38,099 bases of DNA from positions 1-38,099 of the forward strand of contig JAQUEX010000007.1 in assembly GCA_028684935.1 (NCBI GenBank), read 5' to 3'. How positions within the stretch are numbered: the stretch's first letter is position 1; every line of letters starts with the position of its first letter. Shown one piece after another: positions 160-27,561 of the stretch. Made by a program: the position numbers and the translations under genes. Below the pieces are notes generated by a model. That model ran no database searches. It saw nothing but the letters and a program-made list of their open reading frames with translations, and had not been told where the DNA came from. Source of the stretch: Kiritimatiellia bacterium (GTDB taxonomy: Bacteria > Verrucomicrobiota > Kiritimatiellia > RFP12 > UBA1067).

Positions 160-1245
160 TCACTCTGCCACGGGCCGTAGCGCGGTAGAACCGCCTGCCG
201 CAGCAAGCGGACAACCGGTCTCGGCGGCCATGTAGTCGCCGGTGGCGGCATAGGCGCGCGCCCGGCAGCCGCCACAGCCTTGGCGGAAGGCGCACACGCC
301 GCACGCGCCGGCGTAGCGGTCGGGCTGACGCAGATCGTTGAAGACCGGCGAGGTCTCATAAGCGCGACGGAAATCGAATCCGTGCTGCCGCAGATCGCCG
401 CTGGGCACGTCGAGAAAACCGCACGGCTGCAGGATGCCGGTGTGGGAGATGAAGACAAAGCCGCGTCCACCCATGCAGCCTGCAGGAGGCTGGCCCGGCC
501 GGCCCAGAGCGTGCCACATGCGCACGGCTTGCGGCGCGCAGGTTTCACGCACGTGGATCGGACCTTGAAGGTCCATCTCGAAGGCCCAGCGCAGGACGGC
601 TTCTGCCTCGTCCGCGGCCAGCGCGAGATCGCGCAGGCCTGCGCCGCGCCCGACCGGGACCAGAAAGAAGAGGTCGAGCGTGCGCGCGCCGCGCGCGATC
701 GCTTGCTCGCGGATGGCCGGCAGCGCGTCGCGATTGAGCCGCGAGACCGTGGCGTTCACCTGAAAGGGCATGCCGATCTCTTGCGCGATGCGCATGGCGC
801 GCGTCACGTTGTCGAACGCGCCGGCGACGCCGCGAAAGGCGTCATGGTCGGCGGCGCAGGCGCCGTCGAGGCTGAAGCTGCATGCCGTGACGCCGGCGTC
901 TTGAAGCGCCAGCAGACGGTCGCGGGTGACCAGCGTGCCGCACGGTGCCATGACCGAACGCAGGCCGCGCGTCGCGGCGGCGCGAACGAGGTCGAGAATG
1001 TCGGGCCGCGCCATCGGTTCGCCGCCGGTCCAGATGATCATCGGCCGGCCGAACGCGGCGAGAGAATCCAGCACGCGCAGGCACTCGCCGGTCGTCAGCT
1101 CATGGTCATACGCGCGGTCTTGGGCGCCGGCGCGGCAGTGGCGGCAGGCCAGCGGACAGCGGCGCGTGACTTCCCACGCGATCACGCGGGGCGAGACAGC
1201 GGGCTCTTCAGCGGCAATGGGGACGCGGGAGGGATGTGCGTTCAT
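160..1245 (-). CDS. ahbD: Radical SAM/SPASM protein, AhbD-like heme synthase (siroheme-dependent heme pathway)
   Basis: CPLACRHC radical-SAM motif, WTGGEP, C-terminal SPASM cysteines (CGVCAFRQGCGGCRARAYAATGD); adjacent to an AhbC-like gene. Confidence 0.8.
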   Translation of the reverse strand: MNAHPSRVPIAAEEPAVSPRVIAWEVTRRCPLACRHCRAGAQDRAYDHELTTGECLRVLDSLAAFGRPMIIWTGGEPMARPDILDLVRAAATRGLRSVMAPCGTLVTRDRLLALQDAGVTACSFSLDGACAADHDAFRGVAGAFDNVTRAMRIAQEIGMPFQVNATVSRLNRDALPAIREQAIARGARTLDLFFLVPVGRGAGLRDLALAADEAEAVLRWAFEMDLQGPIHVRETCAPQAVRMWHALGRPGQPPAGCMGGRGFVFISHTGILQPCGFLDVPSGDLRQHGFDFRRAYETSPVFNDLRQPDRYAGACGVCAFRQGCGGCRARAYAATGDYMAAETGCPLAAAGGSTALRPVAE

Positions 1246-2429
1246 GAGCGGGGGGACGCGATTTCGTCGTCAGTCAAATAACAGGCGGGGTCCACGCCCC
1301 AGAGATCGCCGGTGGCGGCTTCGGCGCGCGCGCGGAAGTTGCCGCCGCAGACGTCAAGAAAGCGGCAGGTCACGCAGCGTCCGGTGACGTGCTGTTTTTT
1401 GGCGCGCAATTGCGCGAGCAGGCTGTCCGGCGCGGGCTCGCCCCAGATTTTGCTGAAGGGGGTTTGCCGCACGTTTCCGACCGGTTTGTTGCGCCAGAAC
1501 TGGTCCGGGTAAACGGTGCCGTCCCAACTGACACAGCCGATGCCGTGGCCCGTGCTGTTGCCGCCGTTCATGCGCAGAAGCGTCATCACTTCGTCGGCCC
1601 GAGGATTTGCCTCGCGCTGCATGCGCAGGTAGAGGTAGGGGCCATCGCAATGGTTGTCCACGGTGAGCACCTCCACCGGGAAACCGCGCGCGTGCAGACG
1701 CGCGGTGCGTTCGATGATCAGATCCAGCGTGGCGCGGCGTTGCTCGGGCGCGAGGTCGTGTGAGGCGATATCGGCGCCGCGGCCGCAGTAGACCAAGTGG
1801 TAGAGGCAGATGCGCGGGATGCGTTCGGCTTCCATCAAATCAAAGATCGCCGGAATGTCGGCGATGTTGTCGCGGGTCATGGTGACGCGCAGGCCAACCT
1901 TGATGCCGGCCTCGCGGCAGGCGCGGATGCCGGCCACGGAACGACGGAACGCGCCGGGGCAGACGCGGAAACGGTCGTGCGTGGCTTCGCTGCCGTCGAT
2001 ACTGATGCCGACATACGAGACGCCGATCGCCTGGATCTGCGCGGCGAGCGCGGCATCGATCAGGGTGCCGTTCGTCGAGAAGACGACGCGCAGGCCCTTG
2101 CCGACGGCGTGGCGCGCGAGATCCAGAATGTCGGGCCGGATAAAGGGCTCGCCGCCCGAGAAGAGTAGGACGGGGCAGCCGAAGGCGGCCAGGTCATCGA
2201 TCAGGGCAAACGCCTCGACGGTAGTCAGTTCATCGGGGGTGCCCTGGGTCGCGGCATAGCAGTGGGTGCAGGCCAGATTGCAGGCAGATGTGACGTTCCA
2301 AACAACCACCGGCTTCTTGTCGGCGGAAAACTGCAGCAGGTGGCTGGGCAGTTTAGCGGAGTGACGGCCGTAGCGCAGCGGGTCCGACACTTCGACCTGT
2401 CCCATGTAGAGCTTGGAAATTCCGATCAT
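1242..2429 (-). CDS. ahbC: Radical SAM/SPASM protein, AhbC-like (12,18-didecarboxysiroheme deacetylase)
   Basis: N-terminus MIGISKLYMGQVEVSDPLRYGRHSAKLPSHLLQFSADKKPVVVWNVTSACNLACTHCYA is typical of AhbC; SPASM C-terminus. Overlaps ahbD by ATGA. Confidence 0.85.
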   Translation of the reverse strand: MIGISKLYMGQVEVSDPLRYGRHSAKLPSHLLQFSADKKPVVVWNVTSACNLACTHCYAATQGTPDELTTVEAFALIDDLAAFGCPVLLFSGGEPFIRPDILDLARHAVGKGLRVVFSTNGTLIDAALAAQIQAIGVSYVGISIDGSEATHDRFRVCPGAFRRSVAGIRACREAGIKVGLRVTMTRDNIADIPAIFDLMEAERIPRICLYHLVYCGRGADIASHDLAPEQRRATLDLIIERTARLHARGFPVEVLTVDNHCDGPYLYLRMQREANPRADEVMTLLRMNGGNSTGHGIGCVSWDGTVYPDQFWRNKPVGNVRQTPFSKIWGEPAPDSLLAQLRAKKQHVTGRCVTCRFLDVCGGNFRARAEAATGDLWGVDPACYLTDDEIASPRS

Positions 2430-17081: not shown

Positions 17082-18149
17082 ATGTCTGAGCCCGCACAGT
17101 CCGATGCGTTCTGTCTGGCCCCGTTGCGCGGGGTCACGGTCAGGACTTTCCGTAACCTGCACGCACTGTGGTTTACACCGCCAGACTGCGCGGTGGCACC
17201 GTTCATCCCGACCTTTGCGGGCGAGAAAATTAAGCCGCTGCTGCTGAAGGATGTTGATCCCGAACTGGGGCAGGCCGTGCCGGTCGTGCCCCAGGTCATC
17301 GGCAAGGATCCCGCCCAGTTGCGCACGTTGTTGCGTGCGTTCAAGGCGATGGGGTATGACTGTGCCGACCTCAATGCGGGTTGCCCGTATCCGTTTATCG
17401 TCAAGAAAGGGCGCGGCGCCGGCCTGATGCGGGATGAAACGTCTTTCGCGCGTATGCTGGAAGCCGGCTGCGAAGAAATGCCGCATGGCTTTTCGGTGAA
17501 GGTCCGGCTGGGTATCGACCGGTCGGATTTGTTGGCGGCGCGCATGGCGCTGATCAACAGTTTTCCGTTGCGGGAGGTCACGATTCATGCGCGCACGGCG
17601 CGGCAGATGTACGAGGGTGCTGTCGATCTTCAGGCGTTTACCACAGCGTTGGAGGCATGCCGTCACCCGGTCGTTTACAATGGCGACCTGCGCACGCGCG
17701 CGGACTTCCTGCTGCTCAAAATGCGCTTGCCGCAGATCACGCGCTGGATGGTCGGACGCGCCGCCGCCGTCGACCCGTTCGTCTTTGCGCGCCTGACCTC
17801 GGAGATGCCGCCGCCGCGTGACCCGGTTCGTCTCAAGGGTTTTCTGGATGATTACCTCGCCGCCTGCGAGGAGGAGTTATACGGGCCGGTCTCGGTATTG
17901 GGACGCATGAAAGAGCTGTGGAGTTATCTGCATCAGTCGCTGGCGGACGGCGAACGGATCTGGAAAGGGGTGCGCGTATGCCGCGCGCTGCATGAGTATC
18001 GGCGCGTGGTGGACGCGGTATTCGCGTCGTTCCCGGGGTTTGTGTCGGACGTGGCTTTGCGCGGCCTGCACCCGGACGGAAACGACTCGACCTGTTTCTT
18101 GATCGAGGTGCCGCATGAAGGTTGCGATGATCACCATGAAAGGCCATGA
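17082..18149 (+). CDS. dus: tRNA-dihydrouridine synthase
   Basis: LAPLRGVT N-terminus, ADLNAGCPYPF, KVRLGID, VTIHARTARQMYEG, VVYNGDL motifs. Confidence 0.85.
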   Translation: MSEPAQSDAFCLAPLRGVTVRTFRNLHALWFTPPDCAVAPFIPTFAGEKIKPLLLKDVDPELGQAVPVVPQVIGKDPAQLRTLLRAFKAMGYDCADLNAGCPYPFIVKKGRGAGLMRDETSFARMLEAGCEEMPHGFSVKVRLGIDRSDLLAARMALINSFPLREVTIHARTARQMYEGAVDLQAFTTALEACRHPVVYNGDLRTRADFLLLKMRLPQITRWMVGRAAAVDPFVFARLTSEMPPPRDPVRLKGFLDDYLAACEEELYGPVSVLGRMKELWSYLHQSLADGERIWKGVRVCRALHEYRRVVDAVFASFPGFVSDVALRGLHPDGNDSTCFLIEVPHEGCDDHHERP

Positions 18150-21100
18150 GAGAGGGTTTGTCCGCCTGGTGCTGATCGCGGGCGTGCTGCTGGCGGGCCC
18201 GCTTCTGCGGGCCGCTCCCGCCATGGCGACGGCCTATGCCCTCAAGCTCTGGACGGTGGAGGACCGTCTGCCGGGCAGCCCGGTGGTGGGCTTGGCGCAA
18301 GCCGGCGACGGGTACCTGTGGCTGGTGACGCGCGTGCAGCTTATCCGTTTCAACGGCGTGGAATTCTACGAGGTGGCGGTGCCGGCCGCCGTGCGCGAAC
18401 AGACCGGCGAGTTGTCCGGTGTCTTCTGCGGACAGGCCAAAGGCGTGTGGGTCTATGGGCCGGACGGCGTGGCGCGCTATCTTTCCGGCACGTGGCAGGT
18501 CTGGGCGGCCGCATCTCTGCCAGGGACCGTCGGACATGTGCTGGGTATGGTCGAGACGCCGGACGGCGTGGTGCGCGCCGTGGCCGAGCGCGGCCTGCTC
18601 GAAGCGGTGACGGCCGAAGATGATGCGACGACGCAGTTCGCCGTCAAACTCTGCCCGGTGCCTCCGGATGACCGCGCGACACTGGGGGCCGTGACCGACG
18701 CCGCTGCGGATCAGGCGGGAAGCATCTGGATGACCGCGTGGAACGGGCTTGTTGAATACCGCGACGGGCGGTTTGACGACCAGAGCATGCGCCTGCCTGA
18801 TTTTCTGGTCGAGGCTGCCGATGGCGTGCATGCGGGCCGTTCGGGCCGCCTCTGGGTTTACGGCCCGAACGGGGTGGCATACCGCGAGAAGAACATCTGG
18901 ACGCCCATCGGATTTCCCGAAAACGCCGGCATGGCCACCGTCATGCTGGAGGTCTCGGATGGCGGGCTGTGGATCGGCAATCCGACTGGCATGTTCCGGT
19001 GGGAAGCGGGGCGTTGGCAGCGAATCGAAGAACAGGACACGCCGGGCAGCCTGTCGGTCAACACGCTGATTGAAGATCGTGACGGCACCCTTTGGGCGGC
19101 GTGTGACGGCGGGCTGCTGCGCATCCGGGCGAAGAGCGTCGGCACGCTCGTCGCGGAAGGGCGCGCCACCGCAGGCACTGCCTATGCGCTGCGCCGCCTG
19201 GCGGATGACAGCGTGTGGGTGGGGTACAAAGGGCGTGCGGTACGATTGACCGGCAAGGAGGGCCGTTTGCTTCAGACGCTCTACCTGGATGCCGACGTGC
19301 CGGTGAGCGCACTGCTGCAGGATGCCGCGGGACGCGTCTGGATGGGCACGCTGGGCGGGGGACTTTTCATGTACTACGACGGTGTGTTGACGCTGGTCAC
19401 GCAGAGTGACTACAGCATGCCGGTGGTGCATACGGTTTTCACCCTCTTTGACGATCCCGCGCTGGGCATTTTGGCCGGCACACCGCAAGGGTTGATGCGC
19501 GTTTCCGCCGCCGGCGAACTTGAGGCCGCGACCGTCTACGGCTCGCGCGTGGCTGAGCCGGTGCACGGCCTGCACCGCGATCCGGACGGGACACTCTGGC
19601 TGTGCAGCGAACGGCTTGGCCTGTTGCGCATCCGGCCGGACGGCGGCAAGCTGGTGATCGGTCAGGAGGCCGGGTTGGCCGGCTATCCGCGCGTGATGGC
19701 GCGCGACACGACCGGCAATCTCTGGGTCGGCACGACCGCCGGCCTGTTCCTGGTCTCGCGCGACGCTGTGGTGCCGATCGGCCATCATGTCGGCGGCTTC
19801 GATGACGCCGTGCTGCAGATCGCTGAAGACGCGTTCGGGCGGCTCTGGCTCGGCACAACCCGCGGATTGCTGTGTGTGTATCTCGAAGACCTTGAACGGT
19901 TGGCGCGAACGACGGCGAGCGATGAGGCGGTCGCGGTGCGCATGCTGCATCTCGGCCGTTCGGACGGCGTGCCCGGCGGGCGCTGCATGGGCGGTGCGGC
20001 CTCGTTCGGAGGGCCGCGCCGGGGCAACATCTGGTTCCCGTTTGAGAGCGGTGTGGCGGTGGTGGATCCTGCCAAGACCGAGTTTTCCGGACGGCCGCCG
20101 GTTGTGACGATCGAACGTGTGCGCGTCAACGGACAGCAGGTCTTTGACAATGCGGTGCCGCAGCCGCGCACGCTGACACTGGAGCCCGGCGCGCGCAACA
20201 TCGTCTTTCAGTTCGCCGCGCTGAAGCCCGGTGAATCCGATTCCGTGCGGTTTCGCTACCGGGTCGACGGGGTACGCCAGGGATGGTCGCCGGTTCAGGC
20301 GGAGAACACGGCGGTCTTTGAATGGCTGCCGCCAGGCGAGTACACGCTGCAGGTCGTGGCCGAGGCGGGCGGCATTTGGAATCTGGACGGCGACGCGCTG
20401 GCCTTCACCGTACGCGCCTATTTCTGGCAGACGGTGTGGTTTTATCTGCTGCTTGCGGTCGGACTGGCTGCCGTTGTTTTTCTGATCGCCCGCTGGATGC
20501 TCTGGCACCGCTATCAGTTGCAGATGGCTCTGCTCAAACGCGAAGAGGCGTTGGCGCTGGAACGCGCGCGCATTTCGCGCGACATCCACGATGAACTGGG
20601 CAACGGCCTTTCGGTGGTGGCCACGCTGAGTGAGCTGGCGCACAACGACGTGGAAAAGGGGACTGTCCACAAGCGGCTTGATCAGATCTACGATGTGGCC
20701 AATGAATTGGCGCGTAATGTGGATGAAACCGTCTGGGCGGTGAATCCGGCCAATGACGGTTGGGAGCCGTTCCTCAGCTATTTCGAGCAATACACCGAAT
20801 ATTTTCTGGGCAACTCCGGCCTGCGTTTCCACTTCACGCGCCCGGCCGAACTGGTGGAACGGCCGATCGCCTCGAAGACCCGTCATCACCTTTTGCTGGC
20901 TGTGCGCGAGGCGGTCGGCAATGTCCTCAAACACGCAGCGGCCAAACAAGTCCGGATCGCGATGCGCCTTGACGGCGAGGTCCTTGAGGTGAAGGTCGAG
21001 GACGACGGTGTCGGTTTTGACCCGGCTGTGCCGGCCGGTGTCGGCCATGACGGGCTCGGCAATATGGCGCGCCGCATGAAAGAGGCGGGCGGGACGCTTC

Positions 21101-21159
21101 TCATTCACAGCGTCCCCGGCCAAGGCACGCGGTTGACCTTCCGCGTGCCGTTGGGTTAG
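18115..21159 (+). CDS. Membrane sensor histidine kinase with beta-propeller (two-component regulator propeller), Y_Y_Y domain and HATPase
   Basis: Recurrent G-(L/I/V)W(V/M/L) propeller blades, Y_Y_Y region, TM at about 20430-20500, ISRDIHDELGNGLSVVATLSELA H-box, HATPase motifs (DDGVGFDP, GHDGLGNMARRMKEAGG). Start uncertain (18115/18130/18136). Confidence 0.88.
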   Translation: MKVAMITMKGHERGFVRLVLIAGVLLAGPLLRAAPAMATAYALKLWTVEDRLPGSPVVGLAQAGDGYLWLVTRVQLIRFNGVEFYEVAVPAAVREQTGELSGVFCGQAKGVWVYGPDGVARYLSGTWQVWAAASLPGTVGHVLGMVETPDGVVRAVAERGLLEAVTAEDDATTQFAVKLCPVPPDDRATLGAVTDAAADQAGSIWMTAWNGLVEYRDGRFDDQSMRLPDFLVEAADGVHAGRSGRLWVYGPNGVAYREKNIWTPIGFPENAGMATVMLEVSDGGLWIGNPTGMFRWEAGRWQRIEEQDTPGSLSVNTLIEDRDGTLWAACDGGLLRIRAKSVGTLVAEGRATAGTAYALRRLADDSVWVGYKGRAVRLTGKEGRLLQTLYLDADVPVSALLQDAAGRVWMGTLGGGLFMYYDGVLTLVTQSDYSMPVVHTVFTLFDDPALGILAGTPQGLMRVSAAGELEAATVYGSRVAEPVHGLHRDPDGTLWLCSERLGLLRIRPDGGKLVIGQEAGLAGYPRVMARDTTGNLWVGTTAGLFLVSRDAVVPIGHHVGGFDDAVLQIAEDAFGRLWLGTTRGLLCVYLEDLERLARTTASDEAVAVRMLHLGRSDGVPGGRCMGGAASFGGPRRGNIWFPFESGVAVVDPAKTEFSGRPPVVTIERVRVNGQQVFDNAVPQPRTLTLEPGARNIVFQFAALKPGESDSVRFRYRVDGVRQGWSPVQAENTAVFEWLPPGEYTLQVVAEAGGIWNLDGDALAFTVRAYFWQTVWFYLLLAVGLAAVVFLIARWMLWHRYQLQMALLKREEALALERARISRDIHDELGNGLSVVATLSELAHNDVEKGTVHKRLDQIYDVANELARNVDETVWAVNPANDGWEPFLSYFEQYTEYFLGNSGLRFHFTRPAELVERPIASKTRHHLLLAVREAVGNVLKHAAAKQVRIAMRLDGEVLEVKVEDDGVGFDPAVPAGVGHDGLGNMARRMKEAGGTLLIHSVPGQGTRLTFRVPLG

Positions 21160-21232: not shown

Positions 21233-21991
21233 TCAATGACCGTCGTCGAGAAGCGGACGCCGGGGGGAGAGGGGCGGCTCGAAGTCGAACATCAACGGCA
21301 GGTGGTCGGAGAGCCGCACGCGGGGGATTTTGAAACGAACCGGGGTGATGGAGGGGTCGTAGCAAATGAAATCCAGCTCGCGGCACGGCGCCCAACTCGG
21401 GAAGGTGGGGGCGTGGCGCGTGTTGGCGCTCTTGAGGCCGGTTGCGCGCAGGAACATGTGCATCTCCCAAACACCGGAGAGGGTGTTGAAATCGCCGGCC
21501 ACGAGGCGCGGCTTGGCGCAGCCTTGGATCAGATCGTGCAGGTCGCCGAGTTGACGCTGCCGGGCGCGCATGCCCAGAGCGAGGTGGACGAGAAAAATCG
21601 TGACGCTCTCCAGCTCCACCTCGATCGCCAGACTCTTGAAGCCGGTCTCGAAGTCGTGAAAGGTGGTGCGCAGGATCGGTTCGCGCGCGAGCACGGCATT
21701 GGCCTGCTTGTTGAGAACCGGCACGCGGCGGCCGAGGCCGTCGTCCGGATATTTCACGCGGTGGCAGTGAAAATAGTCGAGGTCGTTGGCCAACTCTTCG
21801 GCCTGGTTCTTGCGCTGTGTGCGGAAGGAGCCTGCATCCACTTCAACAAGTCCGATGATGTCGGGGTCCATGTGGCGCACGAAGCGCGTGATGTTGGGGA
21901 AGTGGCGCGTGCTGCGCACGAGGGTTTCCAGCCAGGCGAAGCGGCGCAGCCGTCCGGTTCCGTATTGGATGTTATGGAGCAGCAGGCGCAT
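21233..21991 (-). CDS. Endonuclease/exonuclease/phosphatase (EEP) family protein
   Basis: HNIQYGTG, DIIGLVEVD, LVAGDFNTL, RELDFICYD, RLSDHLPLMFDFE. Confidence 0.88.
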   Translation of the reverse strand: MRLLLHNIQYGTGRLRRFAWLETLVRSTRHFPNITRFVRHMDPDIIGLVEVDAGSFRTQRKNQAEELANDLDYFHCHRVKYPDDGLGRRVPVLNKQANAVLAREPILRTTFHDFETGFKSLAIEVELESVTIFLVHLALGMRARQRQLGDLHDLIQGCAKPRLVAGDFNTLSGVWEMHMFLRATGLKSANTRHAPTFPSWAPCRELDFICYDPSITPVRFKIPRVRLSDHLPLMFDFEPPLSPRRPLLDDGH

Positions 21992-21997
21992 GCGGGC

Positions 21998-24900
21998 TTA
22001 TTCCGGTGTTTCAAAAAGGGAGGCGGGCAGCAGGCAGGTGGCGACGGCGTGTCCTTCAAAGAGCGCGGTATGGATCGGATTCTTGCGCCCCTTGAACTGT
22101 TTGAAGGGCTCCAGCCACTGCCCGAGCAGTTCGATCTGGAGCTGGCCGGTCTCCGTGTCGACCGCCGTGATACGCAGATCCTGGGGACTGTAGCGGATGC
22201 CGGTGCCGAGCGCTTTAGAAATGGCCTCCTTGGCGCACCAGAAGCGCAGGACCGCCGTCGGGGCCTCGCCGGTGTGGGCGGCGAGTTCCAGTTCTTCGTG
22301 CGTGAAGACGCCGCGTGTGAAGTCGTCGCTGAGGGAGCGGCCGAGCACCTCGATGTCGATGCCGATGCGGGCGTTGGCGGCGACCGCGGCGATGATGAGC
22401 TTCGAGGTGTGAGTGATCGAGAGGTCGATTTTGGCGGCGGTGTGTTCGCGCCAGGGACCGAGCGGGTGGGGTTTGCCGGAGTCATCGGGCCAGATCGGAA
22501 TGTCGGCATCGGTCCAGCGCGCCTGGTGGTATTTGAACAAAAAACGGCGCACGGCTTCTTTGGCGGCGGCGCGTCCGAAGAGCCACTCGACGCGGCGGTT
22601 GGTGGCACCCTGCATCTCGAGCCACTCTTCGCGCTCGACCGGCGCGAGCAGCACGTGGGCGAGAGTCTTGAGCCAGAGCTCCTGATTGTTTTCGAAGATC
22701 TTGAACGGCACCTCGGTGGCGACTGAGGCGGCCACGGGCGTGGCGGGGTTGCCCAGCAGTTCCAGCGGCAGCTCGCGGGTCAGGTATTGTTCAGAAGGAC
22801 GCAGGATAAACTGGTGGTATTCAGGCGGAACGCGTTCGCACAGCTCTTCCCAGCCGCGGAAGTGGATGAGCAGGTTGCCGTTGCCGTCGGAGACTTGGAT
22901 GTCGGCCACGTGCGACCGCGGCGTGACGGAGATCAGCCGCAGATAGCCGCGCAAGCGGGCACCTTCGGTGAAGGTGTTGGCGTGGAAAACGATGCGCCGC
23001 GCTCGGAAGGGCATGGAGATGGCCCCGGCGAATTTTTCGTGCGAGCGCCACAGCGAGAAGGCGGAGACGATGCCGTCCAGCAACATCGGCCAGATGGAGA
23101 AGAGCGGGATCTTGGTGTAGCGCACGGCGTCGGCGCGGCCGGGCACCTCGACTTCAAAGTCGATACCCTCCTCGCTCCAGAGATCCACGTGGCGCACGAT
23201 GCGCAGGCTCTCGCCGTGAAAGAGGCGGTCGGGGTAGATGTCGTGGCCGGACCAATTGACCGGGCGCGCGTTGGCCAGCGGCGGCGGCTGGATCGGATGG
23301 TTGGCGGGGCCGGTGGCGGTCAGCAGGATGATTGCCTCGACGATCGGCCAGGTGAAAGCGCTGTTGGGCGAGTCGTCGCGGAGCTGTACGCGCACGGCCG
23401 TGTAGTGCGTGTCGGGCCAGGAGATACGCTCGGCGCGCAGGATGACGCGCAGCGAGCCGCGTTCGAAACCGACCCAGCGCTGGGCGTGCAGGTTGTCGAT
23501 CTGCGCCACGCGGCGGCGCGGCACCAGTTTGCGGGCGGCTTCGCACATCATCTCCAGACTGGAGACCAGGGAGAGCAGGGTCAGGCCTTTGAGCGCGGGC
23601 TTGGCGTAGGAAAGCTGCGACGTGCCGAGTGCGTAATCGCGCAGGAAGGGGTAATCTTCCAGCGTCAGGACTTTGGCGATCTCCATCATGACACCGGGCT
23701 CTTCTTCGAGGATCGCGGCGTTGGCGAGCATCGGGAAGTCGGCGCCGAAATCAAAGCTGCGCTTGTCGGTGATCACCGGCATGGCTTTGCGCGCCTGCTC
23801 GGAGGTGGCGCGCGAAGAGGTGAGAAATTCGCCGGGCGGGGCGAACAACGTGAGCGCGGGCAGCCGGGCCGTGAGGCGCAAGTCGTTCTCGGTGCGCGTC
23901 ACCACCGAGAGCGGGCGATTGAAGTCGAGCGAGCGGCTGCGGCGGTGGCGGTGGAGCATCGTGAGGTCGAGCTGCACCCCCTGTGCGGCCAGCAGGCCGA
24001 GGGCATGGTGGAGCTGGACCAGTCCGGAGCGGTGGATGCGGTTGATGGCGACGGCCTGGTGCGGTTGGTTCTTGAGTGTTTCGTCGATGGCATTGGTCAT
24101 GTTGCCGCGCGCGCCGAGTTCGATAAAGATGCGGAAGCCGTCGGCATGCATCTGTCGGATCGTGTCGTCAAACAGGATCGGCGAGGTCCATTGGTCGGCG
24201 GTGAGGTGCTGGATGGCGCGTGGCTGCGCCGGCAGGCGTTCGGCGGTTGCGCAGGAGTAGACCGGGATTTTGGGCACGTGTCGCACCCAGTGCGCGAGGA
24301 ACTGCTTGATGGGCGGCAGCACCTTGCTGCACCAGGGCGTGTTGAAGGGCCGGTCGATGGGCACGGTCATGGTCTTCACGCCGGCCTTGTGGAGCACTGC
24401 AGTGACCTCTTTCTGGATCGAGGGGGAGAGGGCGATGGTCTGCTGGCGCGGGCTGTGGAAAAAGGCCAGCGCAAGCCGTCCGGGATAAGCCTCCACCAAA
24501 GTGTCCAGCATTGCGCGCGGCGCGTCGATCACCGAGAGCATGACGCAGGCGGGCAGGTCGTCGCGCTCCGCCAGACGGCTCAGCATCTGATAACCCTCGC
24601 GCATGAAAACGATGCGTTTGTTGCGCGAGAGGTTGCCGTAGACCCCGGCGACCTCGAGCGCGGCAAAGTCGCCGCCGCTGAAGCCGGCCAAGCCGTCGGG
24701 GGCCACGCCCATGCGGTCGAAAAGCCGGAAGAGCGCGGTGTTGGCGGCATGGACGGCGATGAAAGATTCGGAAAAGGCCTGGGCCGAGAAGGCTCCGGCG
24801 TCGGTGCGGTAACAGGCTGCTGGCGGGAAGATATAGTCGGCCGGGGAGAAGGTTTCGGTATCTCGAGTCTGGAGCGCCTCCTCCAACTCGTCGAAGGCGC

Positions 24901-25309
24901 TGCGGCAATCCTCGAAGACTAGGCAAAGGTCACGCAGCATATCGGGATAAAACGAGACGGCGCCGGGGAAGAGGAAAGCGATGCGTCCGCGCGGGCAGAG
25001 ACGGTCACGGAAGAAGTAGGTGCCGCTTTTGTCGCGGATGCGTCCTGCATTTTCGGAGAGTTTCTTGTGGGCCTGTGCCAGGCGGTCACGCAGATCGGCG
25101 ACCGAGGCCGCTACGACCGCGAGCACGGCGGGCGTGCTGCGCGCGGAGCAGGCGCAGGTATAGGCGACGTCCTGCAGCGAGACATCCGGCGCGTGTTCAA
25201 GGAAATGGATGAGCCGCTTGACCTCTTCGGCCAACCGGGTGTCGTCGGGAGCGCCGACGAGGCACAGCTCGCAATCAAACGGATCATAAAGGTGGCGGCG
25301 ACCGGTCAT
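21998..25309 (-). CDS. PKS-like multidomain protein: acyltransferase-like, dehydratase (double hotdog)-like, C-terminal 4'-phosphopantetheinyl transferase
   Basis: AT-like FPGAVSFYPDML / GFSGGDFAAL / DRPFNTPW; DH-like YPFLRDYALG and MLLDGIVSAF; PPTase RIGIDIEVL, FTHEELELA, FWCAKEAISKALGTG. ATGA overlap with the upstream KS-like gene. Confidence 0.85.
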   Translation of the reverse strand: MTGRRHLYDPFDCELCLVGAPDDTRLAEEVKRLIHFLEHAPDVSLQDVAYTCACSARSTPAVLAVVAASVADLRDRLAQAHKKLSENAGRIRDKSGTYFFRDRLCPRGRIAFLFPGAVSFYPDMLRDLCLVFEDCRSAFDELEEALQTRDTETFSPADYIFPPAACYRTDAGAFSAQAFSESFIAVHAANTALFRLFDRMGVAPDGLAGFSGGDFAALEVAGVYGNLSRNKRIVFMREGYQMLSRLAERDDLPACVMLSVIDAPRAMLDTLVEAYPGRLALAFFHSPRQQTIALSPSIQKEVTAVLHKAGVKTMTVPIDRPFNTPWCSKVLPPIKQFLAHWVRHVPKIPVYSCATAERLPAQPRAIQHLTADQWTSPILFDDTIRQMHADGFRIFIELGARGNMTNAIDETLKNQPHQAVAINRIHRSGLVQLHHALGLLAAQGVQLDLTMLHRHRRSRSLDFNRPLSVVTRTENDLRLTARLPALTLFAPPGEFLTSSRATSEQARKAMPVITDKRSFDFGADFPMLANAAILEEEPGVMMEIAKVLTLEDYPFLRDYALGTSQLSYAKPALKGLTLLSLVSSLEMMCEAARKLVPRRRVAQIDNLHAQRWVGFERGSLRVILRAERISWPDTHYTAVRVQLRDDSPNSAFTWPIVEAIILLTATGPANHPIQPPPLANARPVNWSGHDIYPDRLFHGESLRIVRHVDLWSEEGIDFEVEVPGRADAVRYTKIPLFSIWPMLLDGIVSAFSLWRSHEKFAGAISMPFRARRIVFHANTFTEGARLRGYLRLISVTPRSHVADIQVSDGNGNLLIHFRGWEELCERVPPEYHQFILRPSEQYLTRELPLELLGNPATPVAASVATEVPFKIFENNQELWLKTLAHVLLAPVEREEWLEMQGATNRRVEWLFGRAAAKEAVRRFLFKYHQARWTDADIPIWPDDSGKPHPLGPWREHTAAKIDLSITHTSKLIIAAVAANARIGIDIEVLGRSLSDDFTRGVFTHEELELAAHTGEAPTAVLRFWCAKEAISKALGTGIRYSPQDLRITAVDTETGQLQIELLGQWLEPFKQFKGRKNPIHTALFEGHAVATCLLPASLFETPE

Positions 25310-26709
25310 GACTCCTCCGGGTACTCTTCGAGGATGGCGGCGGCGCAGGTGCCGGTGAAATCAATCGCGGAAACACAGGCGCGGCACGGGTTTTTCTTGT
25401 TGCCGCGCAGCCACGGGCGCGCGTCGGAGAGCAGGTAGACCGGTGACTTGGCCGAGAGGATACGGGTGTTGGGTTTGTCGACGGCGACATGCGGCGGCAG
25501 CACGCGGTGCGAAAGGGCGAGAGCGGTCTTGACGATGCTGGCGGCACCGGCCGCCCAGAGTGTGTGGCCGATGTTTCCTTTGACCGATCCGACACCGACC
25601 AATGGCTGCCCCGCGCGTCGTTCGCCGTAAATTTCCTGCATGACTTGGATTTCGGTCTGGTCGGAGTGAGGCACGCCGGAGCCATGCGCCTCGAGCAGAT
25701 GGACCGTGTCAGGCGTGACATCGGCGGCGTGCATGGCGCGGCTGACCGCGCGGGTCAGGCGTTCCGGCGTCGGCACGCGCTGGTGCTGGTCGAGCGAGGC
25801 CGCGGCGATGCCGGTGCTGCGGATGATGGCGTAGATGCGGTCGCCGGTGCGCAGGGCGTCTTTGAGTCGTTTGAGCACAAACACGGCGCCGCCCTCACCG
25901 GGTAGGGTGCCGTCCGCCTCGCGGCTGAAGGGCTGGAGGGTTTTTCCGCGTGAGAAAGGCAGTGTGCCGGCGAGGCCGAGCAGCACCGGCCGGTTGAGCG
26001 GCGGCTGAACGGCGCCCGCCAAGGCGATGTCGGCGCGGCGCATAAGCAGGTCGTCCATCGCGCCCTGCAAGGCCTGATGGCCTGAGACGGTGCCGGCGTC
26101 CACCACAAAAGCCGGCCCGGCGAATCCCAGCAGGTGCGCGGTCCAAGAGGCAATGACGCCGCCCAGCGCCGACAGAAATGCGTACGGGTTGGGAGCGGGC
26201 AGGGCTGCGGCGAGCTGCTGGCGGATCTCGATGAGTTGCTCGGGACCTGCGACCGGAAAAAATTTGGCGACGATATCCAGCGTTTGGTCGAGGAAGAAGG
26301 TGTGCTGCAGCCAGTTCACCGAGGCGGCGTTAAAGGGCGGCGCATACCCCAGACGGAAGGAAACGCGGTCCGTGGGCAGATTGTTGATGGTGCTGCCGCT
26401 GTCGCGCAGCGCGTCGATCGCGAGCTGGACGGTGAAGAAGACGTCCTGGTTTTCGCCGGCGTTGATCGTGCGCGGGAAATACTGGTCGGCCGGCGTGCAG
26501 GCGTAGAGGTCACCAAGCTGTGCGGCGGTCGTCGGATAGGGACGATCAAAGAGGGGCGTGGGCGGCGACTCGCCGGCGGGGAGGTCGCCGAGCGGGGTGA
26601 ACAGTGTGCGCCGCTTCATGACATTTCGCCAGAAAGCGGCCAGATTCGGCGCTTCTGCGAACCGGCACGACATGCCGGTAATCACGATGTCTTCACGTGA
26701 TGAACGCAT
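25306..26709 (-). CDS. Beta-ketoacyl synthase-like protein with substituted active-site Cys
   Basis: DIVITGMSCRFAEAPNLAAFWRNV N-terminus, LLEAHGSGVPHSDQTE, VGVGSVKGNIGHTLWAAGAASIVKTAL; VDAGTVSGHQAL at the nucleophile position. Confidence 0.88.
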   Translation of the reverse strand: MRSSREDIVITGMSCRFAEAPNLAAFWRNVMKRRTLFTPLGDLPAGESPPTPLFDRPYPTTAAQLGDLYACTPADQYFPRTINAGENQDVFFTVQLAIDALRDSGSTINNLPTDRVSFRLGYAPPFNAASVNWLQHTFFLDQTLDIVAKFFPVAGPEQLIEIRQQLAAALPAPNPYAFLSALGGVIASWTAHLLGFAGPAFVVDAGTVSGHQALQGAMDDLLMRRADIALAGAVQPPLNRPVLLGLAGTLPFSRGKTLQPFSREADGTLPGEGGAVFVLKRLKDALRTGDRIYAIIRSTGIAAASLDQHQRVPTPERLTRAVSRAMHAADVTPDTVHLLEAHGSGVPHSDQTEIQVMQEIYGERRAGQPLVGVGSVKGNIGHTLWAAGAASIVKTALALSHRVLPPHVAVDKPNTRILSAKSPVYLLSDARPWLRGNKKNPCRACVSAIDFTGTCAAAILEEYPEES

Positions 26710-26720
26710 GATGGCACCCT

Positions 26721-27527
26721 TTAGGGAGCGGTGGGGGCATAACAGTGTTCCGGTGCCGGGAAGGCACCGGTTTGGACCTCGGCTGCGTACGCGGCGAAGG
26801 CGGTGCGCATCGTCGCGGCGAGCGTGGCATACGGCTTGGCGAACTTCGGCGGGCGTTCAGTCAGGCCGAGCATGTCGTGCATGACCAGCATCTGCCCGTC
26901 GCAGGCGGGGCCGGCACCCACGCTGATGACCGGCACAGGAACCGCTGCCGTGACGGCGGCGCCGATGTCGGGCGGCGTACACTCCAGCACGATCGCAAAC
27001 GCACCGGCCTCGGCCAGTGCCTGCGCATCGTCGAGCAGGCGGTCGCAGGCCGCACGCGTCTTGCCCTGGACTTTGTAGCCGCCCAGCACGTTGACCGACT
27101 GGGGCGTGAGGCCGATGTGGCCCAAGACCGGTATGCCGTTTTCAGTGAGGGTCCTCACTAGCTCGGCACGGATAGCGCCGCCTTCGACTTTCACGGCGTC
27201 GGCGCCCGCCTCTTGGACAAACCGGCCCGCGTTGCGGAACGCCTCTTCGCGGTTGATCTGGTACGAGAGAAAAGGCATATCCGCTACGACCATGGCGTCG
27301 GTCGCGCCGCGAACCACCGCCGCCGTGTGGTGGAGCATCTCCGCCATGGTGACGGGAAGTGTCGAGTCATAGCCCAAAACCGTCATGCCGAGCGAATCGC
27401 CGACCAGCAGCAGAGCGATCCCCGCGGCGTCGGCCAGCCGCGCGCTTCCGGTGTCGTAGGCGGTGAGGCAGGCGAGCCTGCTCACCCCTTTCGAGGCCTT
27501 GACTGAGGCCGCATTCCACTTTTTCAT
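26721..27527 (-). CDS. panB: 3-methyl-2-oxobutanoate hydroxymethyltransferase
   Basis: LTAYD, VGDSLGMTVLGYDSTLPVTMAEMLHH, VKVEGG, HIGLTPQSVNVLGGYKVQGK. Confidence 0.95.
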   Translation of the reverse strand: MKKWNAASVKASKGVSRLACLTAYDTGSARLADAAGIALLLVGDSLGMTVLGYDSTLPVTMAEMLHHTAAVVRGATDAMVVADMPFLSYQINREEAFRNAGRFVQEAGADAVKVEGGAIRAELVRTLTENGIPVLGHIGLTPQSVNVLGGYKVQGKTRAACDRLLDDAQALAEAGAFAIVLECTPPDIGAAVTAAVPVPVISVGAGPACDGQMLVMHDMLGLTERPPKFAKPYATLAATMRTAFAAYAAEVQTGAFPAPEHCYAPTAP

Positions 27528-27533
27528 GCCCGC

Positions 27534-27561
27534 ATTTTAGCATAATCCGACCGTTGGGCAA
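27534..27561 (-). promoter_or_regulatory. Promoter of panB operon, apparently leaderless
   Basis: Minus strand TTGCCC - 16 nt (ending TGC) - TAAAAT - 6 nt - ATG. Confidence 0.6.

Follow-up and report, generated by a model that had tools for sequence, protein, structure and literature searches.

A decayed PUFA synthase-like protein pair as the probable main phosphopantetheinyl transferase in an order of Kiritimatiellia

Layout of the panB operon and its encoded proteins

ORF analysis of the 38,099-nt stretch of Kiritimatiellia contig JAQUEX010000007.1 examined here (the whole of which is referred to as the window) revealed four genes on the minus strand in the order panB, KS, AT-DH-PPT and EEP phosphodiesterase. 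The first gene, panB (26721–27527), encodes a ketopantoate hydroxymethyltransferase (PF02548, 3e-107; TIGR00222, E-value of 4e-100, above cut-off). It is followed by genes for a pseudo-ketosynthase (KS; 25306–26709; ketoacyl-synt and Ketoacyl-synt_C), a 1103-aa fusion protein (AT-DH-PPT; 21998–25309; Acyl_transf_1, PS-DH and ACPS) and an EEP-family phosphodiesterase/nuclease (21233–21991; PF03372 Exo_endo_phos), the Pfam matches of these three being above cut-off. The gene order and spacing agreed exactly with the original prediction, with 11 nt between panB and KS, a 4-nt ATGA overlap between KS and AT-DH-PPT, and 6 nt between AT-DH-PPT and the EEP gene. Because the 4-nt overlap was found again in 65 of the 75 loci measured, this layout is not a matter of chance.

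A consensus scan, which is weak evidence for a promoter and found 2 sigma-70-like sites in the region versus 0.7 expected, placed a candidate sigma-70-like promoter (TTGCCC-16-TAAAAT with a TG; 27534–27561, minus strand) 5′ of panB. The panB-KS, KS-AT and AT-EEP junctions were scanned as well and contained neither promoter-like nor terminator-like sites. The scan thus revealed no separate promoter between panB and KS, and the predicted single-operon layout was borne out, panB probably being co-transcribed with KS and AT-DH-PPT in the window's clade. A large one-piece sensor kinase gene (18115–21159, plus strand; Reg_prop propeller, Y_Y_Y, HisKA_3 and HATPase_c) is convergent with the operon.

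The predicted structure of KS (AlphaFold2, mean pLDDT of 89.6) had PKS ketosynthases as its best PDB folds, and its best NCBIfam match was PfaA, albeit far below cut-off. In KS, Thr207 (codon 26089–26091) occupies the position of the catalytic Cys that characterises Pfa-type synthases, while His342, Lys377 and His382 are retained. The predicted structure of AT-DH-PPT (mean pLDDT of 86.8) comprised AT, linker, double-hotdog DH and PPT regions; its closest solved folds were AT-containing PKS modules, with the AT part matching PKS AT domains. The pseudo-AT domain (23900–25012, minus strand) has kept Ser211 (24677–24679) and carries Asn323 (24341–24343) instead of the catalytic His, and in the pseudo-DH domain (22790–23737, minus strand) the HxxxG histidine is replaced by Tyr559 (23633–23635). 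KS, AT and DH of the window thus each lack a key catalytic residue, a point that the original prediction had overlooked. The residues of the C-terminal phosphopantetheinyl transferase (PPTase) domain (21998–22735, minus strand) are complete. This domain is an Sfp-like pseudo-dimer matching PF01648 (1e-15; 58 bits versus a 25-bit cut-off), in which the H, DxE, W and KEA/K residues are present (H967, D985, E987, W1024, E1028 and K1032) and of which the nearest solved sequences are AcpS enzymes. Pfam scans revealed no PF00550 carrier domain on the AT-DH-PPT protein and no ACP or KR in the operon, and a multidomain protein with ACP and KR that could act as a partner was found neither beside the pair, in the window or elsewhere in its order, nor in the window's genome (84% complete).

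Conservation of the pair and its neighbours

Close loci came from Kiritimatiellae/Verrucomicrobia MAGs sampled from the rumen and other gut sites, digesters and freshwater (habitats taken from isolate names). The order and family codes (e.g. f1–f6) were assigned by the search tool, and gene starts and neighbours in these relatives were called by a simple codon-usage script rather than a gene finder. Among 93 distinct loci of the order, the PPTase residues were invariant in all 90–91 copies containing the region. The KS Cys, however, was retained in only 5 of the 75 order copies versus 3/3 outgroups, and the DH His in none of 93 versus 4/4 outgroups, while the AT Ser and AT His remained in 27 and 8 of 93 copies, respectively. 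On the tree, the DH His is gone from every family and the other losses form a mosaic: family f6 has the KS Cys without the AT Ser, f2 and f5 retain the AT Ser-His pair mostly without the KS Cys, and the KS Cys is also present at loci L049, L050 and L060. Judged by these residues, phosphopantetheinyl transfer is the sole predicted catalytic function common to all members of the order.

KSQ- and CLF-type ketosynthases have the KS fold with the catalytic Cys replaced, and often keep the His and Lys. The KS of the order likewise retains the fold with a replaced Cys, and its Lys (73/75) and second His (71/75) are nearly always kept. Unlike in KSQ/CLF proteins, however, the replacing residue is not conserved (at least 11 different residues occur at the Cys position), and the first His position is variable too, being Asp in 45 of the 75 copies, so that no single substitute KS chemistry is apparent.

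Comparison of the window with four relatives yielded dN/dS values of 0.07–0.18 for KS, 0.09–0.16 for AT and 0.06–0.21 for DH, comparable to those of panB (0.08–0.15), with 0.10–0.28 for the PPT core. These low values indicate that the dead KS, AT and DH domains are being maintained rather than eroding. Moreover, both KS and AT-DH-PPT were found in 126 genomes and one alone in 12. In the four cases with both found (genomes G011, G035, G010 and G005) KS was not adjacent to AT-DH-PPT but located elsewhere in the genome (possibly owing to a contig break in G005), so that loss of KS was rejected for these genomes.

Besides KS, panB was the only recurrent neighbour. Of 41 loci, 18 (families f1, f2 and f5) had it immediately upstream of KS, mostly no more than 25 nt away. 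Genomes of the gut clade, f3 and f6 carry panB at another location. The link between panB and the pair that had been predicted from the window thus recurs in three families, but many homologue-bearing genomes have panB elsewhere, which by the prediction's own test makes the link clade-conserved and rules out panB as a universal partner. Because three families have the linkage and the gut clade, f3 and f6 do not, it is old or repeatedly formed, yet dispensable. Placing CoA supply by PanB and a CoA-consuming PPTase in one operon is a sensible pairing. The EEP gene occupied its operon position only in close relatives (including L075), and was therefore rejected as a conserved partner; it is a lineage-specific operon passenger. 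In gut relatives, a radical-SAM protein of 240–300 aa is encoded 3′ of AT-DH-PPT (L066:11839–12714, L128:11284–12183 and L098:5465–6190), and in many loci its gene overlaps the AT-DH-PPT 3′ end by ~10 nt.

Ancestry and census of the fused PPTase

Other families of the class encode homologous KS and AT-DH-PPT proteins with every catalytic residue intact. In genome G224 the homologous pair lies near a gene for a 2509-aa NMO(PfaD-like)-KS-AT-ACP-KR protein, in a genome that also has a separate stand-alone PPTase, and in G305 the homologous genes occur together with a KS-AT-ACP-KR protein. In a PPTase tree, fused PPT domains from the order grouped with those from these intact outgroup clusters (SH-aLRT of 92), separate from stand-alone Sfp-like and AcpS-like enzymes. 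Given the intact outgroup clusters and this grouping, the most plausible interpretation of the pair is that of a PUFA-like synthase's second subunit whose partner and catalysis have been lost. The predicted PUFA-type likeness was thereby substantiated, and the search for ACP, KR or PfaD neighbours that had been proposed along with it did find them near homologues in other families of the class, in one case as a PfaD/NMO fusion. Outside the window's class but within the same phylum, genome G180 encodes a full-length AT-DH-PPT relative whose catalytic residues are intact (L160:6787–10446).

Pfa-type secondary lipid (PUFA) synthases are encoded by pfaABCDE, and in Pseudoalteromonas sp. DS-12 the PPTase is reported to be integrated in PfaC (PMC3098273). 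The pair shares common ancestry with these synthases: it has the KS, AT, DH and PPTase modules, and its intact relatives in the class combine KS / AT-DH-PPT with KS-AT-ACP-KR. Unlike Pfa-type synthases, however, the window's pair has no adjacent ACP, KR or ER subunit, its catalytic residues have been lost, and its PPTase is the only detectable one of the genome.

AT-DH-PPT homologues were present in 133 of the 162 genomes of the order. PF01648 was found in 131 of these 133 genomes, with exactly one match in 126, and in the window's genome (84% complete) AT-DH-PPT was the only match. This profile recovered PPTases in 10/10 bacterial controls and in 48/48 good-quality genomes of the order; as most genomes are draft MAGs, the absence of a PPTase is a statistical finding across many genomes, and the Fisher test on the presence of the fusion and of a PPTase treats genomes as independent (relatedness ignored). 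Ten genomes outside family f4 in which AT-DH-PPT was not found, mostly incomplete, had no PPTase of any kind according to PF01648. KS and AT-DH-PPT are both missing from family f4, 15 of whose 19 genomes contain a stand-alone PPTase. These f4 enzymes form a divergent clade of stand-alone PPTases (L165–L168, L176 and L177), and the possibility that they are excised fused PPT domains was not supported, since this clade is long-branched and on its own. In G042 and G015, extra PPTases were encoded on contigs bearing genuine type-I PKS genes.

In the window's genome, ACPs are encoded by two small ORFs that stand alone. The genome encodes a canonical type-II AcpP (GADSLDTVEL), and therefore needs a PPTase; acpP adjoins fabG, fabD and a plsX-like frame, and the ACP and FabD domains at this locus were confirmed.

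Proposed role and alternative explanations

Formation of holo-ACP is essential, and the usual enzyme is small and stand-alone. In the order studied here, a decayed PUFA-type subunit has probably persisted on account of its PPTase, the main and usually the sole one of the cell, which would work in trans as the housekeeping holo-ACP synthase with the dead PKS part as its scaffold. The C-terminal PPTase would move 4′-phosphopantetheine from CoA onto the free-standing AcpP of fatty acid synthesis, and other carrier proteins of the cell may be substrates as well. KS, AT and DH would no longer run a polyketide cycle but remain as a folded, co-translated scaffold that probably serves assembly and docking of ACP beside the PPTase. 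In the window's clade, co-transcription with panB would tie synthesis of the CoA precursor to the step that consumes CoA, and so could co-regulate the two. Such strong purifying selection on KS, AT and DH could also mean that these domains have taken on a different catalytic or binding role and are not a passive scaffold. A more far-reaching version, in which the order has swapped its stand-alone holo-ACP synthase for a two-protein complex whose dead KS-AT-DH core is an ACP-docking or acyl-sensing platform, with panB in the operon, can be put forward only tentatively.

Such a role has known counterparts in part. Hppt and Sppt are ordinary single-domain, stand-alone PPTases. In Haemophilus influenzae (Hppt) and Synechocystis (Sppt), this sole group II Sfp-type PPTase serves primary metabolism instead of AcpS (PMC4103896), and one Sfp-type PPTase for primary metabolism is what we propose for AT-DH-PPT too; here, however, the PPTase forms the C-terminal end of a dead PKS protein that has a partner KS. 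Group III (PKS/FAS-integrated) PPTases of enediyne PKS and fungal FAS resemble AT-DH-PPT in that the PPTase is a domain of a PKS/FAS-like polypeptide, but they are described as acting on a carrier domain of that same polypeptide (PMC4103896), which counts against the proposed action of AT-DH-PPT on AcpP in trans. AT-DH-PPT differs from them in having no carrier domain, its likely target being the free-standing AcpP. In the literature searched, we found no report of a sole or fused PPTase in Kiritimatiellota, of panB linked with a holo-ACP synthase, or of a bacterium whose sole PPTase is a fused one.

The original prediction had seen the locus as an operon joining panB to an acyl-assembly-like protein pair, of which the operon layout, the PUFA-like ancestry and the recurrence of panB stood up. 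A function in acyl assembly was not supported: the catalytic residues of KS, AT and DH are gone and no ACP, KR or ER partner lies beside the pair. A working PKS/FAS operon was consequently rejected as the main reading. It might still be argued that the pair is a working lipid or polyketide synthase subunit with unusual residues, which uses free-standing ACP, FabD and FabG in trans and whose PPTase primes the ACP. The folds retained in the AlphaFold2 models, the strong purifying selection on every domain and the persistence of the KS Lys, the second KS His and, in 27/93 copies, the AT Ser would fit such an enzyme, but we consider it unlikely given that the DH His is lost in 93/93 copies, that the KS Cys position is so variable, that the AT Ser or His is mostly lost, and that PPT is the only catalytic step conserved throughout the order.

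Somewhat less likely still, the dead domains might form a sensor or regulator that would bind acyl-ACP or acyl-CoA and gate the PPTase or fatty acid synthesis, with panB co-regulated. Their low dN/dS, the co-retention of KS even when relocated in the genome and the panB linkage in three families are consistent with this idea, but there is free variation at the positions of the KS Cys and the first KS His. Homologous intact clusters do exist in the class, and the pair might accordingly be an ordinary PUFA-like remnant without a housekeeping role, with some other, unrecognised enzyme activating AcpP. This appears very improbable, however, in view of the purifying selection, the occurrence of AT-DH-PPT in 133/162 genomes and the lack of a second PPTase in the ten genomes without it.

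In the housekeeping reading that we favour, an enzyme of secondary metabolism seems to have taken over the essential formation of holo-ACP and subsequently given up its own catalysis, its dead domains staying under selection, which would make it a concrete case of biosynthetic enzymes turning into housekeeping scaffolds. The fused PPTase is the only activating enzyme detectable in most genomes of this uncultured lineage, often in an operon with the cofactor-making gene panB. The case also warns that annotation tools should not label KS / AT-DH-PPT loci as functional PKS clusters.

Away from the operon, contig C426 of the window's genome bears a 747-aa ORF with two tandem ketosynthase regions beside rmuC (L164:9091–11334). 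The window itself further contains a pair of neighbouring radical-SAM genes that overlap (160–2429, minus strand) and follow the gene for a 921-aa Ig-like protein; one of the two encodes a SPASM domain.
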